A program made the position numbers and the translations under genes. The notes beneath the pieces were generated by a model. It was not told where the DNA came from. It did no database searches and saw only the letters and a list, made by a program, of their open reading frames with translations. A DNA stretch of 64,000 bases from assembly GCA_947568835.1 (NCBI GenBank), contig OX387609.1, positions 1,058,001 through 1,122,000 on the forward strand, read 5' to 3'. This document shows, piece after piece, positions 8,951 through 61,800 of this stretch. Source of the DNA: Protonemura montana (lineage: Eukaryota; Arthropoda; Insecta; Plecoptera; Nemouridae). The first letter of the stretch is position 1, and each line of letters opens with the position of its first letter.

Positions 8951-9707
8951 CAATGAGAGGTTGGAGGGATGAGAGTTAAGCAACACTGTGCTGGGTCAGG
9001 TATTGGATGGGTGACCATCATACACATGACCAGTTCTGTTCGGGAGAGAGGTTGGAGGGATGAAAGTTAAGCAACACTGCGCTGGGTCAGGTATTGGATG
9101 GGTGACCATCATACACATGACCAGTTCTGTTCGGGAGAGAGGTTGGAGGGATGAAAGTTGAGCAACACTGCGCTGGGTCAGGTATTGGATGGGTGACCAT
9201 TATACACATGACCCGTTCTGTTCGGGAGAGAGGTTGGAGGGATGAAAGTTGAGCAACACTGCGCTGGGTCAGGTATTGGATGGGTGACCATCATACACAT
9301 GACCAGTTCTGTTCGGGAGAGAGGTTGGAGGGATGAAAGTTAAGCAACACTGCGCTGGGTCAGGTATTGGATGGTTGACCATCATACACATGACCAGTTC
9401 TGTTCGGGAGAGAGGTTGGAGGGATGAAAGCTAGTACAGCAACTTCACTCGCCTTGCTTATCAACCTCTCGACAGCATGGATTTGTGGAGGAATCCTGTT
9501 GTTCGCGTTGTACCGTCCTTCGGAAGGGCAGCCGGTGGTCACCTTGGTGCTATTCGACAGGAGTAGGCTACGTGCCGGCACCGGGTTTCCCCTCCTCCCT
9601 TCTAGGCTAGGTTATCATCATCATCCACACATTCACCGACGCCATTAGACCAGTGCCGCATGGCCAGATGTCAAAACAGTGCGTCGTTAAACGCAATAAA
9701 TGAATCA
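8951..9707 (+). mobile_element. 5S-derived SINE, copy A (5 head units plus body)
   Basis: Five 91-bp units with the 5S-like core (gttaagcaacactgcgctgg, tattggatgggtgacc), then the body starting gctagtacagcaac and ending at the tail agtgcgtcgttaaac near 9700. The extreme 5' head is missing. The short frames inside (9424-9648, 9360-9581) are translations of the body and not genes. Confidence 0.9.
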
Positions 9708-10478: not shown

Positions 10479-10720
10479 CAATACCTTTTCGTTACTTTAC
10501 TATTATTGTATTTTTTTTTTGTCTAGATAAGGAAGTATGGAAGAACTTGGCGTATAATAAAGAGTTTTAAAAAAAGGAAAATTATTTGGAAAAATGAAGT
10601 TACATGCCTTAAATTAAGTATTTTCTAGCTGTTTTAATTAACAGATGAAATAAAATTCAATTAAAAATGCTTAAAAAACTGTCTGATTTGCCATAAGAAG
10701 CTTTGATAAAAACAGTTAGT

Positions 10721-14275: not shown

Positions 14276-14930
14276 ATTAGGAACACTAATAAACTCTCAA
14301 AACTCCATTCAAAAAATTAATCTTCTAATTTGCAATAAAATCAACTCAAAAGTGATATGTCCAAGTAGCTCAATTGGTTTGAGCAACACCCGCGACAGGT
14401 GGAGATCGGGGTCCAAGTAGCTCAATTGGTTAGAGCAACACCCGTGACAGGTGGAGATCGGGGTCCAAGTAGCTCAATTGGTTAGAGCAACACCCGCGAT
14501 AGGTGGAGATCGGGGTCCAAGTAGCTCAATTGGTTAGAGCAACACCCGCGACAGGTGGAGATCGGGGTCCAAGTAGCTCAATTGGTTAGAGCAACACCCG
14601 TGACAGCTGGAGATCGGGGTCCAAGTAGCTCAATTGGTTAGAGCAACACCCGTGACAGGTGGAGATTGGGGTCCAAGTAGCTCAATTGGTTAGAGCAACA
14701 CCCGCGACAGGTGGAGACCGGGGTCCAAGTAGCTCAATTGGTTAGAGCAACACCCGCGACAGGTGGAGATTGGGGTCCAAGTAGCTCAATTGTTTAGTGC
14801 AACACCCGCGACAGGTGGAGATCGGGGTCCAAGTAGCTCAATTGGTTAGAGCAACACCCGCGACAGGTGGAGATCGTGGTTCGAGTTTGGGCATCAATAT
14901 TTGAGACGTTTATAAGTGCTCCTAATAATA
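14276..14930 (+). mobile_element. Inverted-repeat element with amplified tRNA-like core
   Basis: The left end (attaggaacactaataaac, tctcaaaa) is roughly the reverse complement of the right end at 14900-14928 (tttgagacgtttataagtgc, tcctaat). Between them lie ten 52-bp units that start at 14359 and repeat every 52 bp to 14827. Each unit holds tRNA box A (tagctcaattgg); only the last continues into a box-B-like ggttcgagttt. Confidence 0.7.
14359..14878 (+). repeat. 52-bp tRNA 5'-half tandem, 10 copies
   Basis: The unit gtccaagtagctcaattggt, tagagcaacacccgcgacag, gtggagatcggg matches the acceptor 5' strand, D arm and anticodon arm of a tRNA. The position expected for T33 is not T and the 3' half is absent in nine of ten units, so these are not tRNA genes. 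Confidence 0.95.
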
Positions 14931-15905: not shown

Positions 15906-16040
15906 GGGGTTGGGTTGGGTTGGGTTGGGTTGGGTTGGGTTGGGTTGGGTTGGGTTGGGTTGGGTTGGGTTGGGTTGGGTTGGGTTGGGTTGGGTTGGGT
16001 TGGGTTGGGTTGGGTTGGGTTGGGTTGGGTTGGGTTGGGT
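15906..16040. repeat. (TTGGG)n array
   Basis: About 27 uninterrupted TTGGG units. The plus strand has GGG runs separated by TT throughout, an ideal G-quadruplex pattern. Open frames on both strands are repeat translations. Confidence 0.97.
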
Positions 16041-16913: not shown

Positions 16914-17349
16914 ATAATCCCGGTCATGTGTATGATTGTCACCCATCCAATACCTGACCCAGCGCAGTGTTGCTTAACTTTCATCCCTCCAACCTCTCTC
17001 CCGAACAGAACTGGTCATGTGTATGATGATCACCCATCCAATACCTGACTCAGCGCGGTGTTGCTTAACTTTCATCCCTCCAACCTCTCTCCCGAACAGA
17101 ACTGGTCATGTGTATGATGGTCACCCATCCAATACCTGACCCAGCGCAGTGTTGTTTAACTTTCATCCCTCCAACCTATCTCCCGAACAGAACTGGTCAT
17201 GTGTATGATGGTCACCCATCCAATACCTGACCCAGCGCAGTGTTGCTTAACTTTCATCCCTCTTACCTCTCTCCCGAACAGAACTGGTCATGAGTATGAT
17301 GGTCACCCATCCAATACCTGACCCAGAGCAGTGTTGCTTAACTTTCATC
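16914..17349 (-). repeat. 5S-SINE head array B (5 units, no body)
   Basis: Five 91-bp units on the minus strand (on plus: gttgcttaactttcatccct ... ctggtcatgtgtatgatggt) with neither the SINE body nor the full 5S head. It is an orphan array of the head unit. Confidence 0.93.
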
Positions 17350-18190: not shown

Positions 18191-19396
18191 AACAGTCAAA
18201 TCTTGAGGTTTGTTTTGAATGCATCCCTGCTTGCAATGCATTTAATTTGTTGTGGAAGGTTATTCATGATTTCACTCCAACATTGAGCATCCATGGTACT
18301 TAGTCTAAGATGTCCCATCTGCAGTTTTCCAGCTTCTCCTGTTCCATGACCAGTGAATGTCATATCTTTTAAGAAAAAATAGGTTAAGTTGTTTGAACCA
18401 TACAAGAAGAAAACTTTAAGTGTCAATTGGCTAGTTTGTTAAATGCCCTGGTTAAATTTAACGGACTGTTAAAGTACGATAGCAATGAGAAAACATGTAA
18501 ACTTGCTACGGGTATTAAAAAAAACTGATTCAGTAAAAATAAGCAATAAAATTCAAATAAAATAACGGTTTTGTCAGCTGATTGGTTGCTAGGCATTATG
18601 TAGCACAAGAAGCAAAGTTAAAGTTTCACTCAAAAACATGCGATTTAAAGTCGGTTTTTCAGTGTAATTAACAGACCGTTAACAAGGGAAAATAAAAAAT
18701 TAACGGACTGTTAGATTAGTAACGAACCGTTAATAATCTAGCATTTATATTAAACTGGCGTTAATTTACGGATCTTAGTTTAACTATAATACCATCTCGA
18801 CTTGCCACAAAATGGCTGACAGATTTTCACTTCCGTTTAATTCAGGTTTTAGTTTTCATGTCATTTCCGCACTTTTAGCAAATTTAATTCAAGCTTTCCT
18901 GGATTTTATTTAACTGATCGTTAAACTCCGCGTTAATGTATGCTAAGTGCAATGTGTAGGAGTTTACATTTTCGCACAGGTTATGCGTTAGTAAAAAACC
19001 GAATGTATGTAATATTACCTGTCTTAATATTTTGTAGCATGACGCGTTCAACAACTTCAAGATTTCAGACAAAATGTTTTAAAACTATATTTTAGCCAAG
19101 CAAACGTCAACCATTGCTGAACTATCAACCAAACTTTTGTCTTGCCGGAAGTAGCTCTGTTGGGACCGGAACTACAAGGTAGAGTTAGTTTCACTTCCGG
19201 GATATTCTCACCAACCGAATTGAAGTCGAATAGCAAAGTTGATAAAGGAGAGTAAAAAATATTCTGTCACAAATACCAGAGTTCAATTTAATAATATGAC
19301 ATTTTCATCTAAAAAATCTTCACAACTAAATGTATTTTCTAATTTTTTAGTTAGCTACGAAGTAACTTATTTTTGAAACTCACATCAAAAATACAA
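18191..19396. other. No gene; cluster of near-palindromic TTAAC..GTTAA motifs
   Basis: Motifs such as ttaacggactgttaa, ttaacagaccgttaac and taacgaaccgttaat occur at about 18458, 18668, 18702, 18720 and 18912. The rest is AT-rich with no coding signal. Confidence 0.5.
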
Positions 19397-20354
19397 TTAT
19401 TATTTGTGGTGTTTAACGACGCACTGTTTTGACATCTGGCCATGCGGCACTGGTCTAATGGCGTCGGTGAATGAGTGGATGATGATGAGGATGATGATGA
19501 ACCTAACCTAGCCTAGAAGGGAGGAGGGGAAACCCTGTGCCGGCACGTAGCCTACTCCTGTCGAAGAGCACCAAGGGGACCACCGGCTTAACGTCCCTTC
19601 CGAAGGACGGTACAACGCGAACAACAGGATTCCTTCACAAATCCATGCTGTCGAGAGGTTGATAAGCAAGGCGAGTGAAGTTGCTGTACTAACTTTCATC
19701 CCTCCAACCTCTCTCCCGAACAGAACTGGTCATGTGTATGATGGTCACCCATCCAATACCTAACCCAGCGCAGTGTTGCTTAACTTTCATCCCTCCAACC
19801 TCTCTCCCGAACAGAACTGGTCATGTGTATGATGGTCACCCATCCAATACCTGACCCAGCGCAGTGTTGCTTAACTTTCATCCCTCCAACCTCTCTTCCA
19901 AACAGAACTGGTCATGTGTATGATGGTCACCCATCCAATACCTGACCCAGCGCAGTGTTGCTTAACTTTCATCCCTCCAACCTCTCTCCCGAACAGAACT
20001 GGTCATGTGTATGATGGTCACCCATCCAATACCTGACCCAGCGCAGTGTTGCTTAACTTTCATCCCTCCAACCTCTCTTCCAAACAGAACTGGTCATGTG
20101 TATGATGGTCACCCATCCAATACCTGACCCAGCGCAGTGTTGCTTAACTTTCATCCCTCCAACCTCTCTCCCGAACAGAACTGGTCATGTGTATGATGGT
20201 CATCCATCCAATACCTGACCCAGTGCCGTGTTGCTTAACTTTCATCCCTCCAACCTCTCTCCCGAACAGAACTGGTCATGTGTATGATGGTCACCCATCC
20301 AATACTTCGGTGATCTAGCGAGAACCGGTTTTTCGAACACGGCAAACCGTTCAG
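19397..20354 (-). mobile_element. 5S-derived SINE, copy C (near full length, 6-7 head units)
   Basis: Reading the minus strand: 5' head ctgaacggtttgccgtg, accggttctcgctagatcac, then 91-bp units, the body (agtacagcaacttcactcgc) and tail agtgcgtcgttaaacaccac followed by aaataataat. The 5S part accggttctcg, gatcaccgaag is close to animal 5S rRNA. The frame 19508-19699 is body translation. Confidence 0.92.
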
Positions 20355-21140
20355 TCACAAAACTAACTCCATATCAAAGTGAATTGCTCCACAGTAAAGC
20401 AATCAACAAAATAAAGAAAGACTTGCTTTGATTAAAACAAGTCGATCAAATTGTTCCTTGCGTTTCTAGCAGAATTTTCATTCGGCGCAAAGAAATCTTT
20501 TATCCACATTCACTTGGACTTCACCCCCATTTTCCACGCTCTGCAAATATTCGCTTTCGTAATGAAAATATAATAATTAATGAGAGAAGTCGAGGAATTG
20601 GACCTACGCAGATAAAACACGGTTAAAACTTGCACGAGCTTCACCGGAAATATATCTCTTCGTCATTCTACTCTAGCTAATAATTACCTGTGTGAAGCTG
20701 CTATCTCTCAATTAATTAATTCCACGGTCGGAACTTGCAATTATTTACCGTACATTTGCTCGGTGTTGATCATTAACAAAAAGTGACGCACGTTTGATCG
20801 ATGCCAGTGATTATCAAAGATGCAATCGCTCGTGAAAACTGGTGAAAGCCGCACAGGTTTAGCAATTTGTGCTTTTCAATTTGTAGAGAGTGATGATATT
20901 CCCGAATGATTGATTAAATAGCTGACAAAAACTTGCGTTTAGTGACAATTTCTATGTGTCTAACCATCTATAACCAATTAACTAAATATTTCATTTCATC
21001 CTTTCTATGCTCAAACTACAACAGAACAGAATTCACTTTAGGACCAAGATTTTTGCTAGCAACAATTGAAAATTTAAAAAAAATTTAAATAACATAATTT
21101 AATTCAAAAATTTAGTCGGAGACCCATTGCTAATATGAAC
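20355..21140. other. No gene seen
   Basis: AT-rich single-copy sequence; no repeat family or exon-like segment recognised. Confidence 0.55.
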
Positions 21141-25196: not shown

Positions 25197-26168
25197 CATT
25201 TTATTTGTGGTGTTTAGCTTGACACTGTTTTGACATCTGGCCATGTGGCACTGGTCTTATGAAGTCGGTGAATGAGTGGATGATGATGAACCTAACCTAG
25301 CCTAGAAGGAAGGAGGTGAAACCCGGTGCCGGCACGTAGCCTACTCCTGTCGAAGAGCACCAAGGGGACCACCGGCTTAACATCCCTTCCGAAGGACGGT
25401 ACAACGCGAACAACAGGATTCCTTCACAAATCCATGCTGTCGAGAGGTTGATAAGCAAGGCGAGTGAAGTTGCTGTACTAACTTTCATCCCTCCAGCCTC
25501 TCTCTCGAACAGAATTGGTCATGTGTATGATAGTCTCCTATCTAATACCTGACTCAGCGCAGTGTTGCTTAACTTTCATCCCTCCAACCTCTCTTCCGAA
25601 CAGAACTGGTCATGTGTATGATGGTCACCCATCCAATACCTGACCCAGCGCAGTGTTGCTTAACTTTCATCGCTCCAACCTCTCTCCCGAACAGAAATGG
25701 TCATGTGTATGATGGTCACCCATCCAATACCTGACCCAGCGCAGTGTTGCTTAACTTTCATCCCTCCAACCTCTCTCCCGGACAGAACTGGTCATGTGTA
25801 TGATGGTCACCCATCCAATACCTGACCCAGCGCAGTGTTGCTTAACTTTCATCCCTCCAACCTCTCTCCCGAACAGAACTGGTCATGTGTATGATGATCA
25901 CCCATCCAATACCTGACCCAGCGCAATGTTGCTTAACTTTCATCCCTCCAACCTCTCTCCCGAACAGAACTGGTCATGTGTATGATGATCACCCATCCAA
26001 TACCTGACCCAGCGCAGTGTTGCTTAACTTTCATCCCTCCAACCTCTCTCCCGAATAGAACTGGTCATGTGTTTGATGGTCACCCATCCAATACCTGACT
26101 CAGTTTGATGTTGCTTAACTTCGGTGATCAAACAAGAACCGGTGTTTTCAACACGCCAAATCGTTCGG
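25197..26168 (-). mobile_element. 5S-derived SINE, copy D (full length, 7 head units, TSD)
   Basis: On the minus strand it starts ccgaacgatttggcgtg, accggttcttg, gatcaccgaagttaagcaac, continues through seven 91-bp units and the body, and ends at caccacaaataaaatg. A 10-bp direct repeat tattaaatga flanks it at 25187-25196 and 26169-26178, the expected target-site duplication. Confidence 0.95.
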
Positions 26169-26202
26169 TATTAAATGAGAAATAGGGAAGCTATGTTAGT
26201 AT

Positions 26203-31836: not shown

Positions 31837-31849
31837 TCTATACGCAACA

Positions 31850-32377
31850 CCGAACGGTTTGGCTGGTTGGAAACACCGGTTCTCGTTAGATCACCGAAGT
31901 TAAGCAACACTGCGCCGAGTCAGGTATTGGATGGGTGACCATCATACACATGACCAGTTCTGTTCGGGAGAGAGGTTGGAGGGATGAAAGTTAAGCAACA
32001 CTGTGCTGGGTCAGGTATTGGATGGGTGACCATCATACACATGACCAGTTCTGTTCGGGAGAGAGGTTGGAGGGATGAAAGTTAGTACAGCAACTTCACT
32101 AGCCTTGCTTATCAACCTCTCGACAGCATGGATTTGTGGAGGAATCCTGTTGTTCGCGTTGTACCGTCCTTCGGAAGGGACGTTAAGCCGGTGGTCCCCT
32201 TGGTGCTCTTCGACAGGAGTAGGCTACGTGCCGGCACCGGGCTTCCCCTCCTCCCTTCTAGGCTATGTTAGGTTCATCGTCATCCACTCATTCACCGACA
32301 CCATTAGACCAGTGCTGCATGGCCAGATGTCAAAACAGTGCGTCGTTAAACACCACAAATAATAATAATAATAATAA
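31850..32377 (+). mobile_element. 5S-derived SINE, copy G (full length, 2 head units, TSD)
   Basis: The cleanest copy. It starts ccgaacggtttggctggttg; aaacaccggttctcg and gatcaccgaagttaagcaac match animal 5S rRNA, followed by tattggatgggtgacc (5S box C). Two 91-bp units, then the body from 32082 and the tail agtgcgtcgttaaacaccac with (aat)n. A 13-bp direct repeat tctatacgcaaca at 31837-31849 and 32378-32390 is the target-site duplication. The frame 32075-32362 is body translation. Confidence 0.97.
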
Positions 32378-32390
32378 TCTATACGCAACA

Positions 32391-34071: not shown

Positions 34072-34144
34072 GTCCCTGTGGCGCAGAGGATAGCGCGTTG
34101 GACTTCTAATCCAAAGGCCGTGGGTTCGATCCCCACCAGGGATG
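34072..34144 (+). tRNA. tRNA-Arg (anticodon TCT)
   Basis: A 73-nt cloverleaf: acceptor GTCCCTG with CAGGGAT (one G-U at the first pair), D stem GCGC/GCGC, anticodon arm TTGGA-CTTCTAA-TCCAA, 5-nt variable loop, T arm GTGGG-TTCGATC-CCCAC, discriminator G. The loop has T33, anticodon TCT and A37. Box A (TGGCGCAGAGG) and box B (GGTTCGATCCC) are intact, and a T-rich stretch (ttttatttttaa) follows as a Pol III terminator. No intron. All stems are intact, unlike every other tRNA-like sequence in the window. Confidence 0.95.
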
Positions 34145-34369
34145 TTATATTTTATTTTTAACTGGCACGCTATTTTACACAAATTGTGTTTTATTGCACA
34201 ACTAAACTCATGCCATCTATTTCTGTATTTATTTCAAATTATGTTTCACAAAACAGCGCTATTTCTCATTGAAATCTTTACATAAAGTCAAAAATAATTC
34301 AAGTTCATCAACATCATTCATTTTAATGAGCCTGGTATTTACAATTAAACAAAGCAACCAAACAAACAA

Positions 34370-35452
34370 CCGATCGGTTTGTTGTGTTGGTAACACCTCA
34401 TTTCATGAGATCACCGAAGTTAAGCAACACTCCGCCGGGTCACCGTATTGGATGGGTGACCATCATACACATGACCAGTTCTGTTTGGGAGAGAGGTTGG
34501 AGGGATGAAAGTTTAGCAACACTGCGCTGGGTCACCGTATTGGATGGGTGACCATCATACACATGACCAGTTCTGTTCGGGAGAGAGGTTGAAGTGATGA
34601 AAGTTAAGCAACACTGCGCCGGGTCACCGTATTGGATGGGTGACCATCATACACATGACCAGTTCTGTTTGGGAGAGAGGTTGGAGGGATGAAAGTTTAG
34701 CAACACTGCGCTGGGTCACCGTATTGGATGGGTGACCATCATACACATGACCAGTTCTGTTCGGGAGAGAGGTTGAAGTGATGAAAGTTAAGCAACACTG
34801 CGCTGGGTCACCGTATTGGATGGGTGACCATCATACACATGACCAGTTCTGTTCGGGAGAGAGGTTGGAGGGATGAAAGTTAAGCAACACTGCGCTGGGT
34901 CAGGTATTGGATGGGTGACCATCATACACATGACCAGTTCTGTTCGGGAGAGAGGTTGGAGGGATGAAAGATAAGCAACACTGCGCTGGGTCAGGTATTA
35001 GATGAGTGACCATCATACACATGACCAGTTCTGTTCGGGAGAGAGGTTGGAGGGATGAAAGATAAGCAACACTGCGCTGGGTCAGGTATTAGATGAGTGA
35101 CCATCATACACATGACCAGTTCTGTTCGGGAGAGAGGTTGGAGAGATAAAAGTTAAGCAACACTGCGCTGGGTCAGGTATTGGATGAGTGACCATCATAC
35201 ACATGACCAGTTCTGTTCGGGAGAGAGGTTGGAGGGATGAAAGTTAAGCAACACTGCGCTGGGTCAGGTATTGGATGGGTGACCATCATACACATGACCA
35301 GTTCTGTTCGGGAGAGAGGTTGGAGGGATGAAAGTTAAGCAACACTGCGCTGGGTCAGGTATTGGATGGGTGACCATCATACACATGACCAGTTCTGTTC
35401 GGGAGAGAGGTTGGAGGGATGAAAGTTAGTACAGCAACTTCTCTCGCTAGAA
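34370..35452 (+). mobile_element. 5S-derived SINE, copy H (11 head units, truncated body)
   Basis: Begins ccgatcggtttgttgtg with gatcaccgaagttaagcaac, then the longest 91-bp array (11 units). The first five units have ggtcaccgtattgg, later ones ggtcaggtatt, and units 2 and 4 share gtttagc, so pairs of units were copied together. The body stops after about 35 bp at 35452 in unrelated sequence. Confidence 0.94.
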
Positions 35453-36154: not shown

Positions 36155-36710
36155 TAGCCTACTCCTGTCGAAGACCAAGGGGACCACCGGCTTAACATCC
36201 CTTCCGAAGAACGGTACAACGCGAACAACAGGATTCCTCCACAAATCCATGCTGTCAAGAGGTTGATAAGCAAGGCGAGTGAAGTTGCTGTACTAACTTT
36301 CATCCCTCCAACCTCTCTCCCGAACAGAACTGGTCTTGTGTATGATGGTCACCCATCCAATACCTGACTCAGCGCAGTGTTGCTTAACTTTCATCCCCCC
36401 AACCTCTCTCCCGAACAGAACTGGTCATGTATATGATGGTCACCCATTCAATACCTGACCCAGCGCAGTGTTGCTTAACTTTCATCCCTCCAACCTCTCT
36501 CCCGAACAGAACTGGTCATGTGTATGATGGTCACCCATCCAATACCTGACCCAGCGCAGTGTTGCTTAACTTTCATCCCTCCAATCTCTCTCCCGAACAG
36601 AACTGGTCATGTGTATGATGGTCACCCATCCAATACGTGACCCAGCGCAGTGTTGCTTAACTTCGGTGATGTCACGGGGACCGGTGTTTCTAACACAACA
36701 AACTGTTCGG
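36155..36710 (-). mobile_element. 5S-derived SINE, copy I (4 head units, 3'-truncated body)
   Basis: Minus strand: head ccgaacagtttgttgtg, accggtccccgtgacatcac, four 91-bp units, then the body up to tcgacaggagtaggcta. The tail is missing. Confidence 0.92.
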
Positions 36711-38730
36711 TGTTATTGATACGAATAGCTCAGTGAATACAACAGAGACCACACAAACACAAACACAAACACAAACACAAACACAAACACAAACACACCC
36801 CCAAGCCTGCCAAACGCACTTTACATCCCATTGGTCTGTCACCACAATCTAATAGACTGAAATTAACATTAACCTTGCCACAAACATTACAAGGTAGACC
36901 CTGCAATTCAAGTGCATCGAGAGCGTCACATCGGTGATGCTAATTCGGGCCTAATAGCATGCTAATTCGGGCATAATTCGGGCCATCCACATAACATCGA
37001 CCGATTACCGAGTTATGTGGTTCAATCAAAGATGGCGTAGTCTGCTGTGTATTCAGTCGAGGTCATTGTATTGTCAACTATGACCGATAGCAGGTTTATG
37101 TATTGTAAGAGCTTCATTACAGGGACATGCCATGTTATTGTTGGGTCGGCTATTGTTTGACCTGCGTTGGGTTTGATGGGATGATATATTGGGGCTGGAA
37201 TTTGGTTCATGAGGAGGAAACTTTCCTATAAGAAGTCTGGACAATGGGGTTTCTGCTGAAATCGAAATTAAACCCTGGATAAAGCAACTAGTTTGATAGT
37301 TAATACTTTACTTGGTATTGAAAAGACATTTTAAAAACTAGTGCTTCTACTAACTGATCGGGTGTGGATATGGAAATGGAGGTCATCGATGCATGATTTG
37401 AATTTGGTTGCCGAACGTTGCTGCGCTCCACGGTTTGAAAGTTGAACCGTTGAAAAAAGAAATGTTTTGTTTGAACGGACGGTTTGCCACGTGGTCCAAC
37501 TTATTTACTTGTCAAATTAGCAGACATTTCACTTGTTTTGTCCCCCGTTTTGTTTGCCTTCAGCCTGACGACGTCCGCGCATCGTAGCGATCTTTGTTTG
37601 TAATTTTCAAACATGTTTTGTTTTCTTTTGGAATTAATTAAACCGCACGTGAAACATTTGAATGTTGCTAAATAATTAGTGAAAGTATTCCATCATCTGT
37701 CAGACGTTATTTTACATTGACTCGTGGTATTATTACTGAATTTATCTTTAGTTTTGTGTGAAACGAAATAATTTGAGTCAGTGTAAAATTGGAGCTCATA
37801 CGAATGTAGATTTCTGGAAATATTCATGGGAAGTTAAGAACAATCTTCTTTATATTCTTGCTCGGTTTGTTGTGGTCTACATCTTGATATATTATCTGTC
37901 AAATCAGAAGACGTCATCCATCATAGAACCAAAGGGAAAATGAGAGTCCAGAAAATATTAAAATTTTCTTCGGAAAAAACCACCGAGAATAACGTCACAA
38001 AGGAAAAAAGAAAACAGCTTCATGTCACGTGATACGCCAGCAATATGTCACAGAATCGAACACCAATTACCGTAATTGCGCCCAGAAACGAGTCGGTACA
38101 TTCTATGTCATGACGTCACAGACTGTACGGGGTTTTGTGCAGACGACAACAATGATTAAAATACAAAAAACAACAATCGATGAACCTTTACATAATAACA
38201 CTCGGTATATTTGGCCAGCTCGTGGGACAATGCACTCGAAGTGGAACAAAAGGACGATGACAAAAGTGAAACTACATGCGATTCGCTGTCCGGGAAATTA
38301 TTCACAATGAGGTGAAAAGCTGCCGAGGGATTTTCCAGTTCAATTTCCACCTCGCAATAAATTGACGCTGGCGACGGACATTTTTTTTGCGGCTTAGGCC
38401 ACAATTAAAACAAAATCTCGTGTTCTAATGGAGGTTGAAAGGTTACCCGCCAGGGGGTGGGTATTCTCTAATTTCACTGCATGTTCATTTCGAAACAGCC
38501 GCAGGCCGAGTTGGAAAAAAGTTTCCACGGCGATGATAAACTCCACAAAGCTGTGTTCAGAACCAAATGAATATCACATATAAAAAGTCAGTGAGAACAA
38601 AACTTGTAACTGTCGGTTAAAAATGTTTTAACGAGTTGTTAAAATTAATCTGGGACGCATCGTCAGTTCAAAACTACAAATTTGTGAAAATACTGGTTAC
38701 TAATTGAATTGATTTATTGTTTTTATCAAT
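36711..38730. other. No gene; (CAAACA)n tract
   Basis: 36750-36796 is a (caaaca)n microsatellite. A short repeat (gctaattcgggc, twice) lies at 36938-36972. The frames 37022-37210, 37758-37943 and 38029-38404 have no domain, no splice context and conflicting strands. Confidence 0.55.
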
Positions 38731-39486: not shown

Positions 39487-40108
39487 ATGATTTCTCCACA
39501 AATCCATGCTGTCGAGAGGTTGATAAGCAAGGCGAGTGAAGTTGCTGTACTAACTTTCATCCCTCCAACCTCTCTCCCGAACAGAACTGGTCATGTGTAT
39601 GATGGTCACCCATCCAATACCTGACTCAGCGCAGTGTTGTTTAACTTTCATCCCTCCAACCTCTCAACCGAACAGAACTGGTCCTGTGTATGATGGTCAC
39701 CCATCCAATACCTGACTCAGCGCAGTGTTGTTTAACTTTCATCCCTCCAACCTCTCTCCCAAACAGAACTGGTCATGTGTATGATGGTCAACCATCCAGT
39801 ACCTGACTCAGCGCAGTGTTGCTTAACTTTCATCCCTCCAACCTCTCTCCCGAACAGAACTGGTCATGTGTATGATGGTCACTCATCCAATACCTGACTC
39901 AGTGCAGTGTTGCTTAACTTTCATCCCTCCAGCCTCTCTCCCGAACAGAACTGGTCATGTATATGATGGTCACCCATCCAATACCTGACTCAGCGCAGTG
40001 TTGCTTAACTTTCATCCCTCCAACCTCTCTCCCGAACAGAACTGGTCATGTGTATGATGGTCACCCATCCAATACCTGACCCAGCGCAGTGTTGCTTAAC
40101 TCCGGTTA
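39487..40108 (-). mobile_element. 5S-derived SINE, copy K (6 head units, short body)
   Basis: Minus strand: a diverged head near 40110, six 91-bp units, then about 70 bp of body ending at acagcatggatttgtggaga. Several units show cctgactcagcg or gtgttgtttaac, variants rare at other loci. Confidence 0.92.
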
Positions 40109-41408
40109 TAGCATGAAAACCCGTTTGTTAAAACCCTACAAACCGATATAATCAACTAAATCTGTGAAAGTAACTTCTACTGCCAGGTTCTTGGTCGACA
40201 TTGAGACGAGCCAATATGGCCGTCTTGACCATCAGGATCATGATACTCTCTTAGCACGCTTAATAACCTTATAACAAGTATTGTTCAGCATCATGTCATT
40301 CTCAACATGAAATGTAGCATAGGTGACTTTGATGTCGAACTCGTCCCTCGGAAATGAGTCGTCGTATCAGAGTTTTGGCAAACGGAGATTGCTCTCGACG
40401 CAATGCGCTGTCCTCAGGGGGTGGAAGGGGTGGGGTAGGGGGTGTAGGGGGGGATGGAAGGGTGGAGGTCACATTGGGGATGTTAATTAACTCAAAAGCG
40501 AGGAATGCAATTACAGATCCAGGTATATGAACTTTGCAGATGAGATATTCGAGATCTATCTTTGATTGGAAATCGTCAAATAGCCACGAAATGCTTCAAT
40601 TACATATCTCTTTGATAGAAATGATTATATTATCTAAAATACATATCGTCTTAAATAGGTAAAGTCGTATTTAAATGCTCTCTTTGTATATGTTTTCACT
40701 TACTTAGTAGTAATTTAATATTTACTAATTATTTAAGTTCACATTTTTAAGTGTAGGTACTGTTGATTTCAACTGCTCTTACCGATTAAGTTACCATAAA
40801 CATAAATAATTATCTTCTGACAATCTATCCCTCCAACCACAAAATTGATAGCAACGCCCATAGCATAATTAATATAAAAATCAACATATTTGATAATTTA
40901 GTCCATAACTTGTATGATAATAATAAAATCGAATTCATTTTGAAGCATAAAAATATTGCAATTATGCTATAAAAATCCGTAAAAAAAATCATAACAAATT
41001 ATCCGCTACTTTCTCCGATTTACAAGAATCCCACCTAAATCCACAGCACTTCCTTATTACCATATGACGCAAGGTAAGATAGGTACGCACTAGAGAGAGA
41101 CACGCGTTAGTAAGAGAGAGACAGAAGTCAATGCAGCTGTGCAAGGTCTTGAACTAAGCCAAGATCGATGGGTAAAACATCGCCGACCAGCGATGTGTCA
41201 TAATTTTCTTAATCAAATAAACTGTTCTGACAGGTGACTTGATTTATTCCCTGACGCAACTCTGCGATGTGTGGAGGGGAAGGGAGGGGGGGGGGGAGGG
41301 CGGCGTTGTGTGGTTAAAAATGCGATCGTTGCTTTCAAGCTTGGCTGCGAGTCGTTCAGTCCAGAGCCACGATTTCAAGAATCTTAGAAGAACACAGCTC
41401 GTGTCTTA
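40109..41408. other. No gene; G-rich stretches
   Basis: G-rich, C-poor stretches lie at 40418-40465 and 41268-41302. The rest is strongly AT-rich. The frame 41239-41481 runs into the SINE head and is rejected. Confidence 0.55.
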
Positions 41409-41939
41409 TGAAGAAACACCGGTCCTCGTGAGATCACCGAAGTTAAGCAACACTGCGCTGAGTCAGGTATTAGATGGGTGACCATCATACACATGACCAG
41501 TTCTGTTCGGGAGAGAGGTTGGAGGGATGAAAGTTAAGCAACACTGCGCTGAGTCAGGTATTGGATGGGTGACCATCATACACATGACCAGTTCTGTTCG
41601 GGAGAGAGGTTGGAGGGATGAAAGTTAAGCAACACTGCGCTGAGTCAGGTATTGGATGGGTGACCATCATACACATTACCAGTTCTGTTCGGGAGAGAGG
41701 TTGGAGGGATGAAAGTTAAGCAACACTGCGCTGAGTCAGGTATTGGATAGGTGATAATCATACACATGACCTGTTCTGTTCGGGAGATAGGTTGGAGAGA
41801 TGAAAGTTAAGCAACACTGCGCTGGGTCACGTATTGGATGGGTGACCATCATACACATGACCAGTTCTGTTCGGGAGAGAGGTTGGAGGGATTAAAGTTA
41901 AGCAACACTGCGCTGAGTTAGGTATTGGATGGATGACCA
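41409..41939 (+). mobile_element. 5S-derived SINE, copy L1 (6 head units, no body)
   Basis: Starts aaacaccggtcctcgtgaga, lacking the first bases of the head, and runs through six 91-bp units. It breaks at ggatggatgacca, where a second head begins. Confidence 0.9.
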
Positions 41940-42030
41940 CCAAACGGTATGGCGTGTTGGAAACACCGGTCCTCCAGAGATCACCGAAGTTAAGCAACAC
42001 TGAGCTGGGTCAGGTATTGGATCCGACCCT
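41940..42030 (+). mobile_element. Second 5S-SINE head, copy L2
   Basis: ccaaacggtatggcgtgttg, aaacaccggtcctcc, gatcaccgaagttaagcaac, tattggatc. This is the 5S head in near-complete form, stopping inside box C and followed 19 bp later by a tRNA-Lys-like unit. Confidence 0.85.
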
Positions 42031-42049
42031 GCGAAGCTACAACATGTGT

Positions 42050-42126
42050 GCCCGGATAGCTCAGTTGGTAGACCAACAGACCGGCAATTGTGAGGTCCCA
42101 GGTTCGTCTCCCAGTTCGGTTGCACA
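42050..42126 (+). repeat. tRNA-Lys-like retroposed unit
   Basis: gcccggatagctcagttggt then a broken anticodon arm and box B ggttcgtctcc. It is the second copy of the family seen at 2649-2725 (minus). Confidence 0.75.
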
Positions 42127-42189
42127 TAATTCCAGTCGAGCTTTTTTTACCAATTTTATCGAAGTTTCAACTTAGTATTATATTAACCA

Positions 42190-43573: not shown

Positions 43574-44617
43574 TGTAGCGAGAGCGCCATGTCTGCCTTG
43601 CATTCGGGAGGTCCCACGTTCGATCCTGGTGGCCGGCTATCCTGGTAGTGAGAGCGCCATGTCTGCCTTGCATTCGGGAGGTCCCATGTTCGATCCTGGT
43701 GGCCGGCTATCCTGGTAGTGAGAGTGCCATGTCTGCCTTGCATTCGGGAGGTCCCAGGTTCGATCCTGGTGGCCGGCTATCCAGGTAGTGAGAGCGCCAT
43801 GTCTGCCTTGCGTTGAAGAGGTCCCAGGTTCGATCCTGGTGGCCGGCTATCCTGGTAGTGAGAGCGCCATGTCTGCCTTGCATTCGAGAGGTCCCAGGTT
43901 CGATCCTGGTGGCCGGCTATCCTGGCAGTGAGAGCGCCATGTCTGCCTTGCATTCTAGAGATCCCAGGTTCGATCCTGGTGGTTGGCTATCCTGGTAGTG
44001 AGAGCGCCATGTCTGCCTTGCATTCGAGAGGTCCCAGGTTTGATCCTGGTGGTCGGCTATCCTGGTAGTAAGAGCGCCATGTCTGCCTTGCATTCGGGAG
44101 ATCCCAGGTTTGATCCTGGTGGTCGGCTATCCTGGTAGTGAGAGCGCCATGTCTGCCTTGCATTCGGGAGATCCCAGGTTTGATCCTGGTGGTTGGCTAT
44201 CCTGGTAGTAAGAGCGCCATGTCTGCCTTGCATTCGGGAGATCCCAGGTTTGATCCTGGTGGTCGGCTATCCTGGTAGTGAGAGCGCCATGTCTGCCTTG
44301 CATTCGGGAGATCCCAGGTTCGATCCTGGTGGCCAGCTATCCTGGTAGCAAGAGCGCCATGTCTGCCTTGCATTCGGGAGATCCCAGGTTCGATCCTGGT
44401 GGTCGGCTATCCTGGTAGTGAGAGCGCCATGTCTGCCTTGCATTCGGGAGGTCCCAGGTTTGATCCTGGTGGTCGGCTATCCTGGTAGTGAGAGCGCCAT
44501 GTCTGCCTTGCATTCGGGAGATCCCAGGTTCGATCCTGGTGGTCGGCTATCCTGGTAGTGAGAGCGCCATGTCTGCCTTGCATTCGGGAGGTCCCAGGTT
44601 AGATCCTAATTCCCATT
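43574..44617 (+). repeat. 70-bp tRNA-Ala-like tandem array, 15 copies
   Basis: The unit agagcgccatgtctgccttg, cattcgggaggtcccaggtt, cgatcctggtggccggctat, cctggtagtg starts at 43581 and repeats every 70 bp to 44561. It holds box B (ggttcgatcct) and a loop cttgcat in the anticodon place, as in tRNA-Ala(TGC). The D stem does not pair, so I call it tRNA-derived rather than functional. The palindrome gccggc sits where the 3' acceptor strand of one unit and the 5' strand of the next would be. Confidence 0.93.
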
Positions 44618-49877: not shown

Positions 49878-52800
49878 CTGCAACAAAAACATGAAGGTAT
49901 TAGGCAGCCGACAGTAAACCAGGTGCCGGCATGCAGCCTGTTCCTGTCCAACAGCACCAAGGACCGGTCACCGCTTAGCCTTGTCACTTTGACACACTGT
50001 GCTGGCTGCTCCTGTCCAACAGCACCAAGGACCGGCCACCGCTTAGCCTTGTCACTTTGACACACTGTGTTGGCTGCTCCTGTCCAACAGCACCAAGGAC
50101 CGGCCACCGCCTTGTCACTTTGACACACTGTGTTGGCTGCTCCTGTCCAACAGCACCAAGGACCGGCCACCGCCTTGTCACTTTGACACACACTGTGTTG
50201 GCTGCTCCTGTCCAACAACACCAAGGACCGGCCACCGCTTAGCCTTGTCACTTTGACACACTGTGTTGGCTGCTCCTGTCCAACAGCACCAAGGACCGGC
50301 CACCGCTTAGCCTTGTCACTTTGACACACTGTGTTGGCTGCTCCTGTCCAACAGCACCAAGGACCGGCCACCGCTTAGCCTTGTTGCTTTCAGTTAATTT
50401 AATGGAAAGAGAAGTACCTTATTATCTGAAGCGTGGCTGGCGAAGATTTCTCCGACTGCAAGAAGTTGACAAAGTTCCGCAGAGCTTCCGATTCTTCCGT
50501 GTCCAGCTCTGGCAGGTCTCGCTGGAAACGAGAAAGAAACGCACAACGTTTAGTCCAGTAGAAAGCAACGCCAAGAAACTGCAGCCAAATGAACACCATG
50601 TGTCTTTCAAAACCCAAGACGATGGCACATTCTACACAACGTACTGGAATTGCTGGTATGAAAGTCACAAGATGCTTAGATTAGACCATTTTTTTCAGTC
50701 AAATATCCCAGGAATGTTCCAACCAAACAAACTTCCAGGACCGATAACAGATTCCAAGATCAAGTCGGACTGGATTTAAGATGGTCTATTACATGGACAC
50801 ATCGGGGAAAAAATCACAACTGAAATAATCCTTCGGGACTCCAGCCAACTTGACAGGTTAACCTTTACTACCAATCCTAAAACAAATGTTTTAACAAATT
50901 CACTGGTCTTTCCAGGATGAAATGTCTGCTGGTCTTCTTCAGTTTGTATATTAAAGCATCCTAGTAAACAAAACAAAATTGCCAAAGGATCCAACACCAT
51001 ACAGCTATCCAGTACACATTTATAAAGTGGTGCTCTTTTTAATGAAATTACCCTCACGGCAAGGCACGTTAAGCACATAACAATGTATTTGTGTTCTTCA
51101 AAACATTTCACTTAACAAAATAAACTCCCGACTCACCAAGTCTTCTCTGATCTCGAGGAACGATGCGACACCGAAAGTGGTGTGACAAAACGCCGGGCTG
51201 ACATTTCGACCGATGAAGATAATCATCTCGTCGTTGCTGTCCAATAGGAAGACTCCGCTGGACTCGAGCTTCTCGGCAGTCAGCTGTAGCCGAGGGGGCT
51301 GCGGCACGATCACGCCCTCCACGTCGATCGAAGGCTGGAGAATGGAAGAGTGAGGTTAGGAAAGTACACGATAATAATAATTATGTTGCGTGGTTACAAT
51401 GCATACATCACTCTAATCGTCTTCATACAATTATTACAGGCATTTCTTTAACAAGTTGTACTATTTACTAACATTACTTAGTATTAAGAAATAGTTTCAA
51501 CTCTTCAACTCCGTTGGGTATTGTGGTCCTATGTAATGTGATTCCATCCCGGAATGGTTTGCCCAATGAAAGAGTATCTCCCCGTTATTTGTGTTGTAGC
51601 CTCTCCTTTGTATTGTGTATTTACTCAGGTCTCTGGCTGAAGAATTGTTCGTGTATTGTTGCATATCTCTGTGACAATGAGGATCATTTTGACTTCAGCC
51701 CAACTTCAGCTTCTCTATCAAATCAGTGGGTCTTTGCTCCCTTTATAACTTGTTTAGCAGTTTCCAGGCTGCTTGTCTTTGCAACTTCTTCAAGAGGTAT
51801 ATTAATTAAGCTATCATCGTGAGGGTCGCAGCTTGCGCTGGCATAATCTAGCATCGACCAGACTTCTAGGCCACGTCTTTTCTTTCTCTTCTGCTGCCCC
51901 GAATGGAAATGGTTCAATAAAACAGGAATTGATTCGAAAGTTTACTGTTCCGAAGAACCGTTGATAAAGTAACAGGTACAAGTTACGAGACGTTGGGAAA
52001 TTTAGTTGTTCATCACTTAGCATTCAAAACCCATTTGAAATAGTTTTTGTTAAAACTAGTGCTAAGTTTACATCAAGGAGACATGAGTCTAAAAACAATC
52101 AGAAGAAAATCCAGTTACAAAATCCAGATTGTTTGTTTTCAAATTTTACTATTGAGTACGATTGTATTGTGTTGTATTTGATTGACAACTCGTTGAAAAT
52201 CTCCACGTGTTTGGGGATCTTTATGCTGATCCTTATGTCTGGTATCAAGCAATACAAAAGTTCAGTTCTAGAGAAGGTTCAATATGAAAGAGTAAAAGTG
52301 GTAAATGAATTGGGAGGTAGAAAACAGAAGATTGTGGATGAGGAAAGTGGTAGCAATCATCAATTTCCTATCACGGTAGGTTGAATTTCCTTTTCAATTC
52401 AGAGAGAAGATTCATTTAGGAATGTGATTCAATTAAGAAGCCATATCATCGAGTACTTAGGTCCATTAGAGCAGGATAGCAAAGCTTGCCTGTTCGTTTA
52501 TCCTGTGTACTGGATACATGTCCGGATAGACGGCCTGGATCAGGTTGGCCAACGGCAACGTCTTCATCTGACACATGGCGTACACGCGGTCGTCCAATCG
52601 CGTGCTGGCTCCAGTGCGGAACGCAATCTGCAAAACACGGGCTAAACGGTAACGGCTGTCGAAAGAGATACTTGATGTTCGTAGGGTAATGTACCGTGCA
52701 AACTGTATTTACTATTTGATATTTACTTTGCCACAGTTCTTTCTTGGTGGATAGTACGCTGTTTTGAAATAAATTTCATTTTAACTGTCTTTAATACGCT

Positions 52801-58800: not shown

Positions 58801-61800
58801 GAAAGGATTTCAGTTATTCACAAACATAACTAATCATTTTCTAAAAAATTGGGAGCGACACTTATAAATTGTTTAGTGCGAGAACAATGCTTTTAATCGA
58901 ATATTTACTTGGAATATTTAAAACCTCTCACAAATTGGTGCACAACCGGGCACTCGAACCATTTAATAAAGTTCCACATCAGCTTTACCTTGTTCTGGTT
59001 TTTAGGACATACATATTATTATTTTTTATTTTTTTTCATAAATCTGTTGTAAATGCAACGTCAGTACTCACTCAGGACTGCAGTTAACAGCGTCGAGGAA
59101 CTCCTGCTGCAGCTTGATCCGTGGGGTGTCCACCTTCTCCGCTGGTAAGATGTTTCTGCACTGCATCAGATCGTAGCTGTCTGCGCCCCAGAGTTTGCTG
59201 AAACCCTGCTGAGCCACCGAGAGCCCCGCCAACTGGGCGTTGATGCCCGCTTCACTGCCCGCCACAGCGCCTGAGTGGGCATTCACAGCGTATATTTCAC
59301 AATTTGCTTATTAGTTTTTAGATGAAATCTGATTTAAATTGCAAACGCTTGCAATGCGCGGGGTATTTTATTATTATCAACACTATAACCGTCTCAAAAA
59401 TCGATTCCCAAACGCGCGGACTTGGACCCCAATCTCCACCTTTCGCGGGTGTTGCTCTAACCAATTGAGCTACTTGGACACTGGCTTTTTGAGAGAATTT
59501 TCATGTATTTGATGAGAATAATGGATCTCCAAGGAGTAGAACCAGCAATTTTTGTGACGGTTATAGTGTTGATAATAATAAAATGCTTATTAGTTAATTA
59601 TTGTTAAGATTTTTTAAATGTAAAGGCCTGTTTTTCAGCGATTAATAGGCTGTTAGCAAACAAAATAATCCTCCGATTGATAGTTTTTAGACTCATGTCT
59701 ACTTGATGTAAACTTAGCACTAGTTTTAACAAAAACTATTTCAACTGGGTTTTGAATGCTAAGTAAAGAACAACTAAATTTCCCAACGATTCGTAACTTG
59801 TGCCTGTTACTTCTTCAAGGACTGCTCTAACCCTTGATAAAGTAACAGGTACAAGTTACAAAACGTTGGGAAATTCAGTTGTTCTTCACTTAGCATTCAA
59901 AACCCAGTTGAAATAGTTTTTGTCAATCTTCTGATTGGCTGTTGCTAAGCAAATAACACAATTAAAGGACCATTACATCCAAAAATAACTCCAAAATTCA
60001 GAGCTGTCATCTGTTGCCAGCAACGGATTGCCAGACTTAAATTTAGAACAGCCGTTTGGAGTTGATTAGAGTTTGGTGGGATATTTAATTACAGGCACTG
60101 AGTCTAATGGTCAGAACCTGAGCAAGTGCATAGGATGGGTTGGGGTACAGAAGAAGGTGTAGAGGGAATAAATGGTTCAATTCTATATTTAATGCAGTAA
60201 TGAAAGAATATGATTAACTGCCCCACACGATTATAAACTTGACAGGTGCAGGATGTTTCGAGGTTAGGTCCGTCGAATGGATTAAAACCACCCATGAATA
60301 CTTATGATAAATAATTATTATATACTTTTAACTATTATATACTTCCTATACTGGTACCACAATATATCAATGGTACTTGGGTTAATTTTAACTCACATCT
60401 GAATTGTTTATAATGTAATGTTTGAAAAATTGGCTTCCGAGCCACCAAATAAACATTATTATTATTAATAATGCAGATGGTACAGACAGTGAAATGATAA
60501 CGCCGGTAATGTTAGGTTAGGTTAGGTTAGGTTAGGTTAGGTTAGGTGCTTACGCAAACATTAAGACAAGAAGAGCTCACCTCGCTGTTGCTGCTGCTGC
60601 GGATAGCGATTGTTTGCCAATTGACTCGTAGGAACTGTGCTTTGTGGATAGCCGTTGGTTCCCGGTGGATGGCTGGCAACACCGGGAACACCGGTTGGAG
60701 GGGGTCTTCCCGTAGGTGGGGCCATTCCCGGATAGGACGCAGACATTGCCGGACCACTTTGAGGCATTCCTGGTCCACTTTGAGGCATTCCCGGACCACT
60801 TTGAGGCATTCCCGGTCCACTTTGAGGCATTCCTGGACTACTTTGATACATTCCTGGACCGCTAGGTGGCATGCCCTGACCACTTTGGGGCATGCCAGGA
60901 CCACTTTGGGGCATGCCAGGACCACTTTGAGGCATGCCAGGACCACTTTGATACATTCCTTGCCCGCTAGGTGGCATGCCAGGACCACTCGGTATAATTC
61001 CAGGTCTAGGAGGCATTCCGCTTTGATTAAGCCCAGTTCCACTAGATGGTAATCCAGGTCTACTCTGAATAATTCCAGGACTATTATTTTGATTAATTCC
61101 TAAACCACTCGGCGACATTCTTGGGTCGCTCGGTGGCATGAGCGGTCCTGGTGGGTTTCCAGTTTGATTGAATCCAAGTCCAGCGGTGGGCATACCAGGG
61201 CTACCGGAGGGCATCGCACCCATAGGCGCCGCACTCTGCAACATTCCAGAACCAAACGGTGGTATTCGTTGCAATCCAGGGCCGGCTTGAGTCGTTCCCG
61301 AGAGCGGTGGTCCCATTCCCGGCAGCTGTCTGCCGATCGCAGAGAGTTGCGGAGGTCCTTCTGACGACGACGGGCCATTAGTCTGCTGTCGGTTTGGCGA
61401 CGGCTGCTGATCGTACGCCGCCATCCTGTTTTCTGTTCTAGGCAACGTGCCCAGCGCATTGGTCCGCGGGATCGGAGGTCCGGCCAACGATTGGATCCCG
61501 CCGCCCGTCGGTTGCAACGTGTGAGTCGCTGCCGAGCTCGCGGGATTGCCACCAAGGATGCCGTGGAAGTTGCCGGCGTTGCTCTGAACCTGCGAGCCCT
61601 GCGGGAATATGCCAGCGTTCGGTTGTCGGGTTTGGTCGTATTGGTTCGCAAACCGTTGAGGGGAACTTGTCGCACTGTACGATGAGGCACTGTTTGTCGT
61701 CACGGGAATGCTAGCAGTTTGATTGGAGTACGATGGTTGCGATGCTTGTCTATTCGGGTCGGTAGGAACCACGTTGCCGCCGGGAAAGATTCCTGCGTTC

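Follow-up and report, generated by a model that had tools for sequence, protein, structure and literature searches.

The window analysed here, a stretch of 64,000 nucleotides from Protonemura montana (contig C12, positions 1,058,001-1,122,000), lies about 1.1 Mb into an 18.2-Mb contig of an assembly of 258,480,905 bp in 34 contigs. Tandem Repeats Finder (TRF) detects nine arrays of a 91-bp unit in it, with 2 to 11 units each, and a BLAST search with a single unit recovers the identical nine places. The arrays belong to copies of a SINE, of which A, G, H and L lie on the plus strand and B, C, D, I and K on the minus strand. The two programs thus agree with the original prediction, which had placed 91-bp arrays in nine copies on both strands and given a unit number for each.

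Copy H (plus strand) consists of a diverged, 5S-like head at 34369..34416, which is the 5' part of the element and 75% identical to the head of copy G in BLAST, an array of eleven 91/92-bp units at 34417..35422 (TRF, BLAST) and only the first ~20 nt of the body at 35423..35442, after which other DNA follows. These boundaries had been assigned correctly beforehand. In BLAST comparisons the eleven units are 94.6-100% identical to the consensus unit, which excludes chance. A tRNA-Arg (TCT) gene is located at 34072-34144, about 220 bp upstream of this copy.

Two copies are complete insertions. Copy G (31846..32379, plus strand) comprises a head, two units (31897-32078), a body and an AAT tail, is flanked by an exact target-site duplication (TSD) of 13 bp, TCTATACGCAACA, and contains a match to the 5S rRNA model of Rfam (RF00001) at 31849-31969 on the plus strand. 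Copy D (25201..26172, minus strand) is a complete SINE with seven units (array 25485-26121) and an exact TSD of 10 bp, TCATTTAATA. The exact duplications flanking both confirm the earlier proposal that the arrays are situated inside otherwise ordinary insertions. In copy C (19396..20355, minus strand; array 19696-20305), the other testable copy of the window besides D and G, head, six units, a part unit and body are present and the body is 0.5% diverged, and no TSD was found.

The remaining copies retain various parts of the element. Copy I (36155..36714, minus strand) has a head, four units (36300-36663) and the first ~140 nt of the body, and copy K (39489..40130, minus strand) a diverged head, six units (39557-40101) and the first 62 nt of the body. 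Copy A (8955..9701, plus strand) is headless, with five units and a part unit (8955-9427) before its body. Copy B (16922..17349, minus strand; TRF, BLAST) is a solo array of four units and a part unit with neither head nor body. Copy L (41413..42022, plus strand) contains part of a head, five units and a part unit (41440-41945), then a second head with 36 nt of a unit, and is without a body; at 41938-42150 the truncated array is directly adjoined by this second SINE head and then by a tRNA-like stretch.

The plain form of the SINE is composed of a head (48 nt), one 91-nt unit, a body of ~285 nt and (AAT)n. The unit, which makes up 91 of the 434 nt of the SINE consensus, is shorter than the SINE and a part of it, and consists of nucleotides 49-120 of 5S (73 nt) and an 18-nt linker. 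The linker had been put at about 45 bp, but its actual length is ~18 nt, since the 5S match of copy G (58.5 bits, model positions 1-120) covers the 48 nt of the head and nucleotides 1-73 of the unit. Copies G, I and D pass the Rfam gathering score for 5S; over model positions 1-120 RF00001 scores 42-58.5 bits in three copies of the window, and of eight loci searched outside it seven score 45.6-64.2 bits. The 5' part is thus homologous to 5S rRNA, as in the 5S-derived SINEs of the SINE3 type, and the element also shares TSDs and a simple 3' tail with that type. Non-autonomous Helentrons with central repeats insert without target-site duplication; the TSDs of the SINE copies do not agree with this class.

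Counts for the whole genome were obtained by pattern searches for junctions. At up to two mismatches there are 4,086 + 4,033 = 8,119 unit/body junctions (reversed control: 0), 10,092 head/unit junctions and 26,138 unit/unit junctions. The one-unit SINE is the ordinary form in the genome, which the window alone could not reveal. A TSD score of at least 8 was reached by 8 of 16 loci with one unit (n = 1), 4 of 5 with n = 2 and 1 of 6 with n ≥ 3, compared with 1.4% of swapped controls, supporting retroposition of the plain SINE. The number of units per locus ranges from 1 to 16+, so that the original description of a 5S-headed SINE carrying a segment of its head as an internal array of variable number is borne out.

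Whether a copy carries a single unit or an array seems to be decided by its location. Thirty loci with exact junctions were sampled on contig C1 between 0.5 and 15.2 Mb. The first ten (L001-L010, 0.5-1.5 Mb) have 8, 2, 2, 1, 2, 16+, 3, 2, 6 and 2 units, that is, nine of ten are arrayed with 2 to 16+ units. The copy at L011 is cut short within its first unit, and a separate four-unit array lies nearby. From L012 to L030 (2.6-15.2 Mb) one full unit is found in 17 of the 19 loci, the others being L017, truncated inside the unit, and L021 with five units.

The same tendency is seen in near-perfect copies on ten large contigs. For n ≥ 2, 100 of 317 places (at most two mismatches) were listed, all with at most one mismatch, and 98 remained after two on C16 had been dropped; for n = 1, 61 places had at most one mismatch (of 223 at up to two), and 56 remained after the five on C16 had likewise been left out so that both sets cover the same contigs. 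Among the matches listed, 87 of the 98 copies with n ≥ 2 lie within 3.5 Mb of a contig end, versus 31 of the 56 with n = 1 (Fisher p = 6e-6); 32% of the DNA of those ten contigs lies in this range. The 31 distal one-unit copies count against growth driven by place. The regional signal is nevertheless strong, and the arrays occur preferentially in subtelomeric regions and the plain SINE is dispersed, as is characteristic of SINE-derived satellites (sSats).

Other tandem DNA follows the same gradient. Counting arrays of any kind with a period of at least 8 and at least three copies in TRF, tandem coverage at 1.0 Mb is 29-100% in seven 10-kb stretches, of which six belong to large contigs and one to a 1.1-Mb contig, compared with 0% in four such stretches at 4.0 Mb, and the former are still 25-100% tandem when the 91-bp family is left out. 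Within the 3-kb loci, tandem DNA other than the 91-bp family averages 11.8% below 2 Mb (11 loci) versus 0.7% above (19 loci; p = 0.02). Two of the 10-kb stretches at 1.0 Mb, L033 and L035 on C4 and the small contig C6, are near-pure satellite, mainly of 16-bp and 30-bp units. TTAGG-type and variant telomere-like repeats were observed at contig starts, with (ACCTA)n on C16, which we take to match the TTAGG telomere motif of arthropods, and (AAACC)n on C13; interstitial (GGTTA)n and (GGGTT)n arrays occur in the window at 1027-1485, 15907-16040 and 60511-60547.

Arraying is not peculiar to the 5S SINE: these regions also contain arrays of a tRNA-headed SINE and of several other units. In the window a tRNA-headed, SINE-like family is represented by ten 52-bp units (14359..14880, plus strand; TRF), the unit being what we take to be the box-A part of its tRNA-like head, and by a single head that is not arrayed (59420..59479, minus strand). 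The 52-bp unit is also found in eight tandem copies in L031 on C2 and singly in L036, with similar 3' sequence after it. Its unit/unit junction occurs at 10,642 places (at most one mismatch), and the plain start of this SINE at 922 places; of 100 exact places listed for the plain start, 97 are no more than 3.1 Mb from an end, and the C1 interior has none of them. Arrayed units without relation to the 5S SINE (41, 73, 47/53 bp and others) share these regions as well; the 41-bp unit is found on both C1 and C11, and its junction has 9,153 exact matches, of which the 100 listed are all in the first 1.0 Mb of C1.

On one chromosome (C1, 2-28.99 Mb) the interior arrays were analysed from lists of exact matches. 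Interior islands lie, among other places, at 19.04, 20.98, 22.42, 25.10 and 26.09 Mb. Of the six islands that contain 52-bp arrays, five are accompanied by a 91-bp array at a distance of up to 10 kb, whereas uniform placement gives 0.06 such islands on average and never more than 3 in 100,000 placements; the island at 28.87 Mb lacks such a neighbour. Of the 18 interior array loci 7 are equally close, versus none of 66 single-head loci, and an array neighbour within 5 kb is found at 8 of 18 array loci versus 5 of 66 singles, which fits islands. This co-occurrence indicates that the array state goes with the region. The tRNA-headed SINE is itself distal, which counts against local growth as the sole fit for the islands; the lack of its plain form in the C1 interior means that they may be transposed chromosome-end DNA and not sites of growth.

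A composite transposon was considered for inverted pairs of arrays about 3 kb apart on C1 and rejected: in L042, the one pair that was read, the spacer contains some dispersed repeats and does not match L021, which belongs to a second pair of this kind, and two loci are thin evidence. Several other arrays were observed. At 43575-44607 of the window about fifteen 70-bp tRNA-like units with a GGTTCGATCC motif, presumably B-box-like, directly follow a T-run; this unit has no relative outside its own array among the sampled loci. At 49938-50384 there are 6.7 copies of diverged 68-bp units which are 80-88% like 25-40 nt of the body of the 5S SINE and may form an older array that derives from a different part of a related SINE. 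At C1:923572-924144 and C1:1225130-1225613 head/unit junctions are spaced 92 bp apart, so that these arrays are in another register and perhaps represent independent births; one guessed junction pattern for them gave two matches in the genome, and the guess was therefore wrong.

The original prediction had left open whether the arrays insert preformed or grow after insertion. The units themselves support growth in place. Comparing 141 units from 20 arrays of at least four units, the distance is 3.9% within loci and 4.6% between loci, a difference reached in none of 1000 permutations. The nearest neighbour of a unit is in its own locus in 36% of cases versus 5% expected, and adjacent units are more similar than in shuffled order (0 of 1000). 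Block duplications are evident on the plus strand of L042 (units 2-5 repeated as 6-9), in copy H (1-2 as 3-4) and in L031 (unit 8 = unit 9), and alternation or blocks are present in copy H and both arrays of L042. On the open alternative, growth in place is thus supported by blocks and adjacency, and the array state follows place; place is partly confounded with subfamily, as described below.

Units also appear to be exchanged between loci, for which the evidence is suggestive. At the 14 loci with n ≥ 4, units are 2.05% and bodies 4.14% diverged, with units lower in 10 of 14 (p = 0.017), and unit and body divergence show no correlation at these loci, unlike at those with n = 1. Extreme cases are the minus-strand copy of L042, with units at 1.1% (11/975 sites) and the body at 7.4% (15/202), and L032 with 1.0% versus 7.1%. 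The unit lineages of a closed locus would be as old as the insertion, so that an old body with young units implies that units were imported or exchanged. Unit position 22 differs as well, with G in 74 of 101 inner units and A in 13 of 20 copies that have a single unit. Three observations count against exchange. Lower divergence of units than of bodies is also seen with n = 1 (5.1% versus 6.3%, p = 0.036; the two values correlate, rho 0.64), at the eight loci with n = 2-3 units are not younger (3.4 versus 2.8%), and the first and last units of arrays are mixed at position 22 (11 G/9 A and 12 G/8 A). The contrast of the unit/body ratio between n ≥ 4 and n = 1 is modest (bootstrap P = 0.039). The divergence values were computed with diagnostic sites masked, which weakened the contrast seen with one consensus across subfamilies; for copy K the body value (10.9%) comes from 55 sites and is unreliable. 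The single shared unit, together with units younger than their bodies, suggests a founding duplication plus exchange.

We consider it moderately probable, on balance, that the arrays are a SINE-derived satellite which arose from the part of a 5S-headed SINE that carries its internal promoter, through one founder, place-dependent growth and exchange. The plain one-unit SINE would insert by retroposition, and a single founding tandem duplication of the 91-nt unit, which has AAGTTA at both ends, would have entered the SINE family. Position in the outermost ~3 Mb of a chromosome would raise the tendency of short tandem duplications to expand through unequal exchange or slippage; SINE copies in these parts would thereby reach 2 to 16+ units, and most of those elsewhere would keep one. 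The interior array islands would be either further growth sites or transposed chromosome-end DNA. Finally, units would pass between loci, making inner units more alike across loci than the ages of the bodies allow. No function of the arrays is needed for this.

A possible though doubtful extension is that discrete cis-acting amplification zones, namely the chromosome ends and interior islands of ~10 kb, grow any short duplication, so that unrelated SINE heads become arrayed together, and that units pass between zones, by which old copies gain young arrays. If this is true, a SINE array would report the local recombination or replication behaviour.

Rather unlikely, in our estimate, is a young subfamily that retroposed with a preformed head array, in which source copies differ or reverse transcription slips and the distal position reflects a bias of insertion or retention. 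It draws on the body diagnostics, which set copies with n ≥ 3 apart from those with n = 1: body site 21 is T in 16 of 20 copies with n = 1, 2 of 7 with n = 2 and none of 14 with n ≥ 3, and sites 72, 79 and 242 follow the same pattern. Exact matches occur at 2,507 places for the young type (C21) and 824 for the old type (T21). The young type is itself concentrated distally, 84 of the 100 places listed lying at 28.8-31.6 Mb of C1 at very high density, whereas the 59 places of the old type on C1 extend over its full length and are denser beyond 29 Mb (19 of 59 in the last 4.2 Mb). As the arrays follow the body subfamily and the young subfamily is distal, place and subfamily are partly confounded. 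The exact TSDs around copies with seven and two units (D and G) are also as expected from preformed arrays, as is the identical 91-bp unit in 28 arrays of the 5S SINE, with one place of 68-bp body-like units as the exception (TRF arrays of the window and loci). Yet within the old subfamily all three classified copies below 2 Mb are arrayed, versus none of 18 at 2-27.8 Mb (16 more unclassified); within the young one, arrays are found in five of six classified copies below 2 Mb and two of five in the interior (four unclassified). Units much younger than the body at several loci, the differences between loci in copy number and block duplications, and the TSD score of at least 8 in only 1 of 6 loci with n ≥ 3 versus 12 of 21 with n = 1-2, small as these numbers are, also argue against preformed arrays.

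That arrays are kept because each unit holds a complete 5S-type Pol III control region, with more units giving more transcription, appears improbable. For the promoter monomers of mouse L1, more units have been proposed to give more transcription. These monomers and the VNTR of primate SVA are variable promoter or internal repeats carried by the element itself; they differ from the arrays of the 5S SINE, mouse L1 having the Pol II promoter of a LINE and the SVA repeat being a non-promoter VNTR. The unit starts at nucleotide 49 of 5S and would, from the sequence, hold the whole internal control region, the boxes of which were located from what we assume to be their positions in 5S; a Pol III stop (TTTT) is present in only 4 of 178 units, and the arrayed subfamily is the young one. 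Against this, units without any visible relation to the 5S SINE are arrayed in the same regions, array B stands alone without head and body, and three of the five classified young copies of the interior have one unit.

We think it similarly improbable that each locus was duplicated independently across the 6-nt direct repeat AAGTTA soon after insertion, with neither founder nor exchange. This repeat is found at both unit boundaries, 91 bp apart, the two units of L002 have three variants in common, and other duplications do exist, namely the 92-bp spacing at two places of C1 and the 68-bp body-like array of the window. The SINE consensus contains thirteen other direct repeats of 6-7 nt, spaced 40-250 bp, so that microhomology alone is insufficient as the cause of the unit, and yet 28 of the 29 SINE array places use the 91-bp unit; the difference at position 22 between inner units and single-unit copies is likewise not expected. 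Although tandem repeats can be mis-assembled, an assembly artefact is very improbable, since units within arrays differ in orderly blocks, arrays covered in full are shorter than 1.3 kb and, among the matches listed, the n ≥ 2 form occurs on at least 11 large contigs.

It had been supposed that no SINE with a head array of variable number had been described. This does not hold, as the satellites sSat1, sSat2 and sSat3 of squamates (Vassetzky et al. 2023, PMC10702118) are head-containing units in few to hundreds of copies with a subtelomeric preference. As here, each tandem unit is a SINE segment, which in snakes is 67 nt long and includes promoter box B together with part of the body; SINE ends flank the arrays, similarity exists within and between loci, subvariants alternate and the plain SINE is spread (PMC10702118). 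In both cases the unit is part of the SINE and its number varies between loci. The squamate satellites derive from tRNA-headed SINEs and mostly keep one SINE end (PMC10702118), whereas the element described here has a 5S head and often both ends. Further differences are the host, in which a TTAGG-like contig end is found, the 2 to 16+ units so far and the second SINE arrayed close by in interior islands.

Other systems share single features. In Lathyrus sativus, short arrays carried by dispersed retrotransposons have expanded mainly in a single type of chromosome region (PMC7004042), but the elements there are LTR elements and the regions primary constrictions, instead of SINE heads and chromosome ends. 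The Cg_HINE Helentrons of the oyster (PMC7492417) are dispersed elements with satellite-like central repeats, an internal short tandem array as here, but they are DNA transposons, and the abstract describes neither a Pol III promoter unit nor an effect of chromosome ends. HaSE3, a 5S rRNA-derived SINE of the moth Helicoverpa, has a 5S head, a body, a LINE-like tail and TSDs, and the word "tandem" is absent from the main text of its report (PMC3272025). A literature search, scant in subscription papers, found no 5S-headed SINE with head arrays. What is new is the 5S head, the non-squamate host and the arraying of two SINEs together, while the phenomenon itself is known from squamates.

In the squamate study it was regarded as uncertain whether SINE-derived satellites are limited to squamates (PMC10702118). 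The present arrays extend them beyond squamates and to a type-1, 5S head. With the one-unit SINE at thousands of places, the genome contains a built-in experiment in which the sequence is near-constant and the place varies, and array length could serve to map the sites of tandem growth. That two unrelated SINEs are arrayed in the same regions suggests that the region, and not the element, causes satellites to arise.
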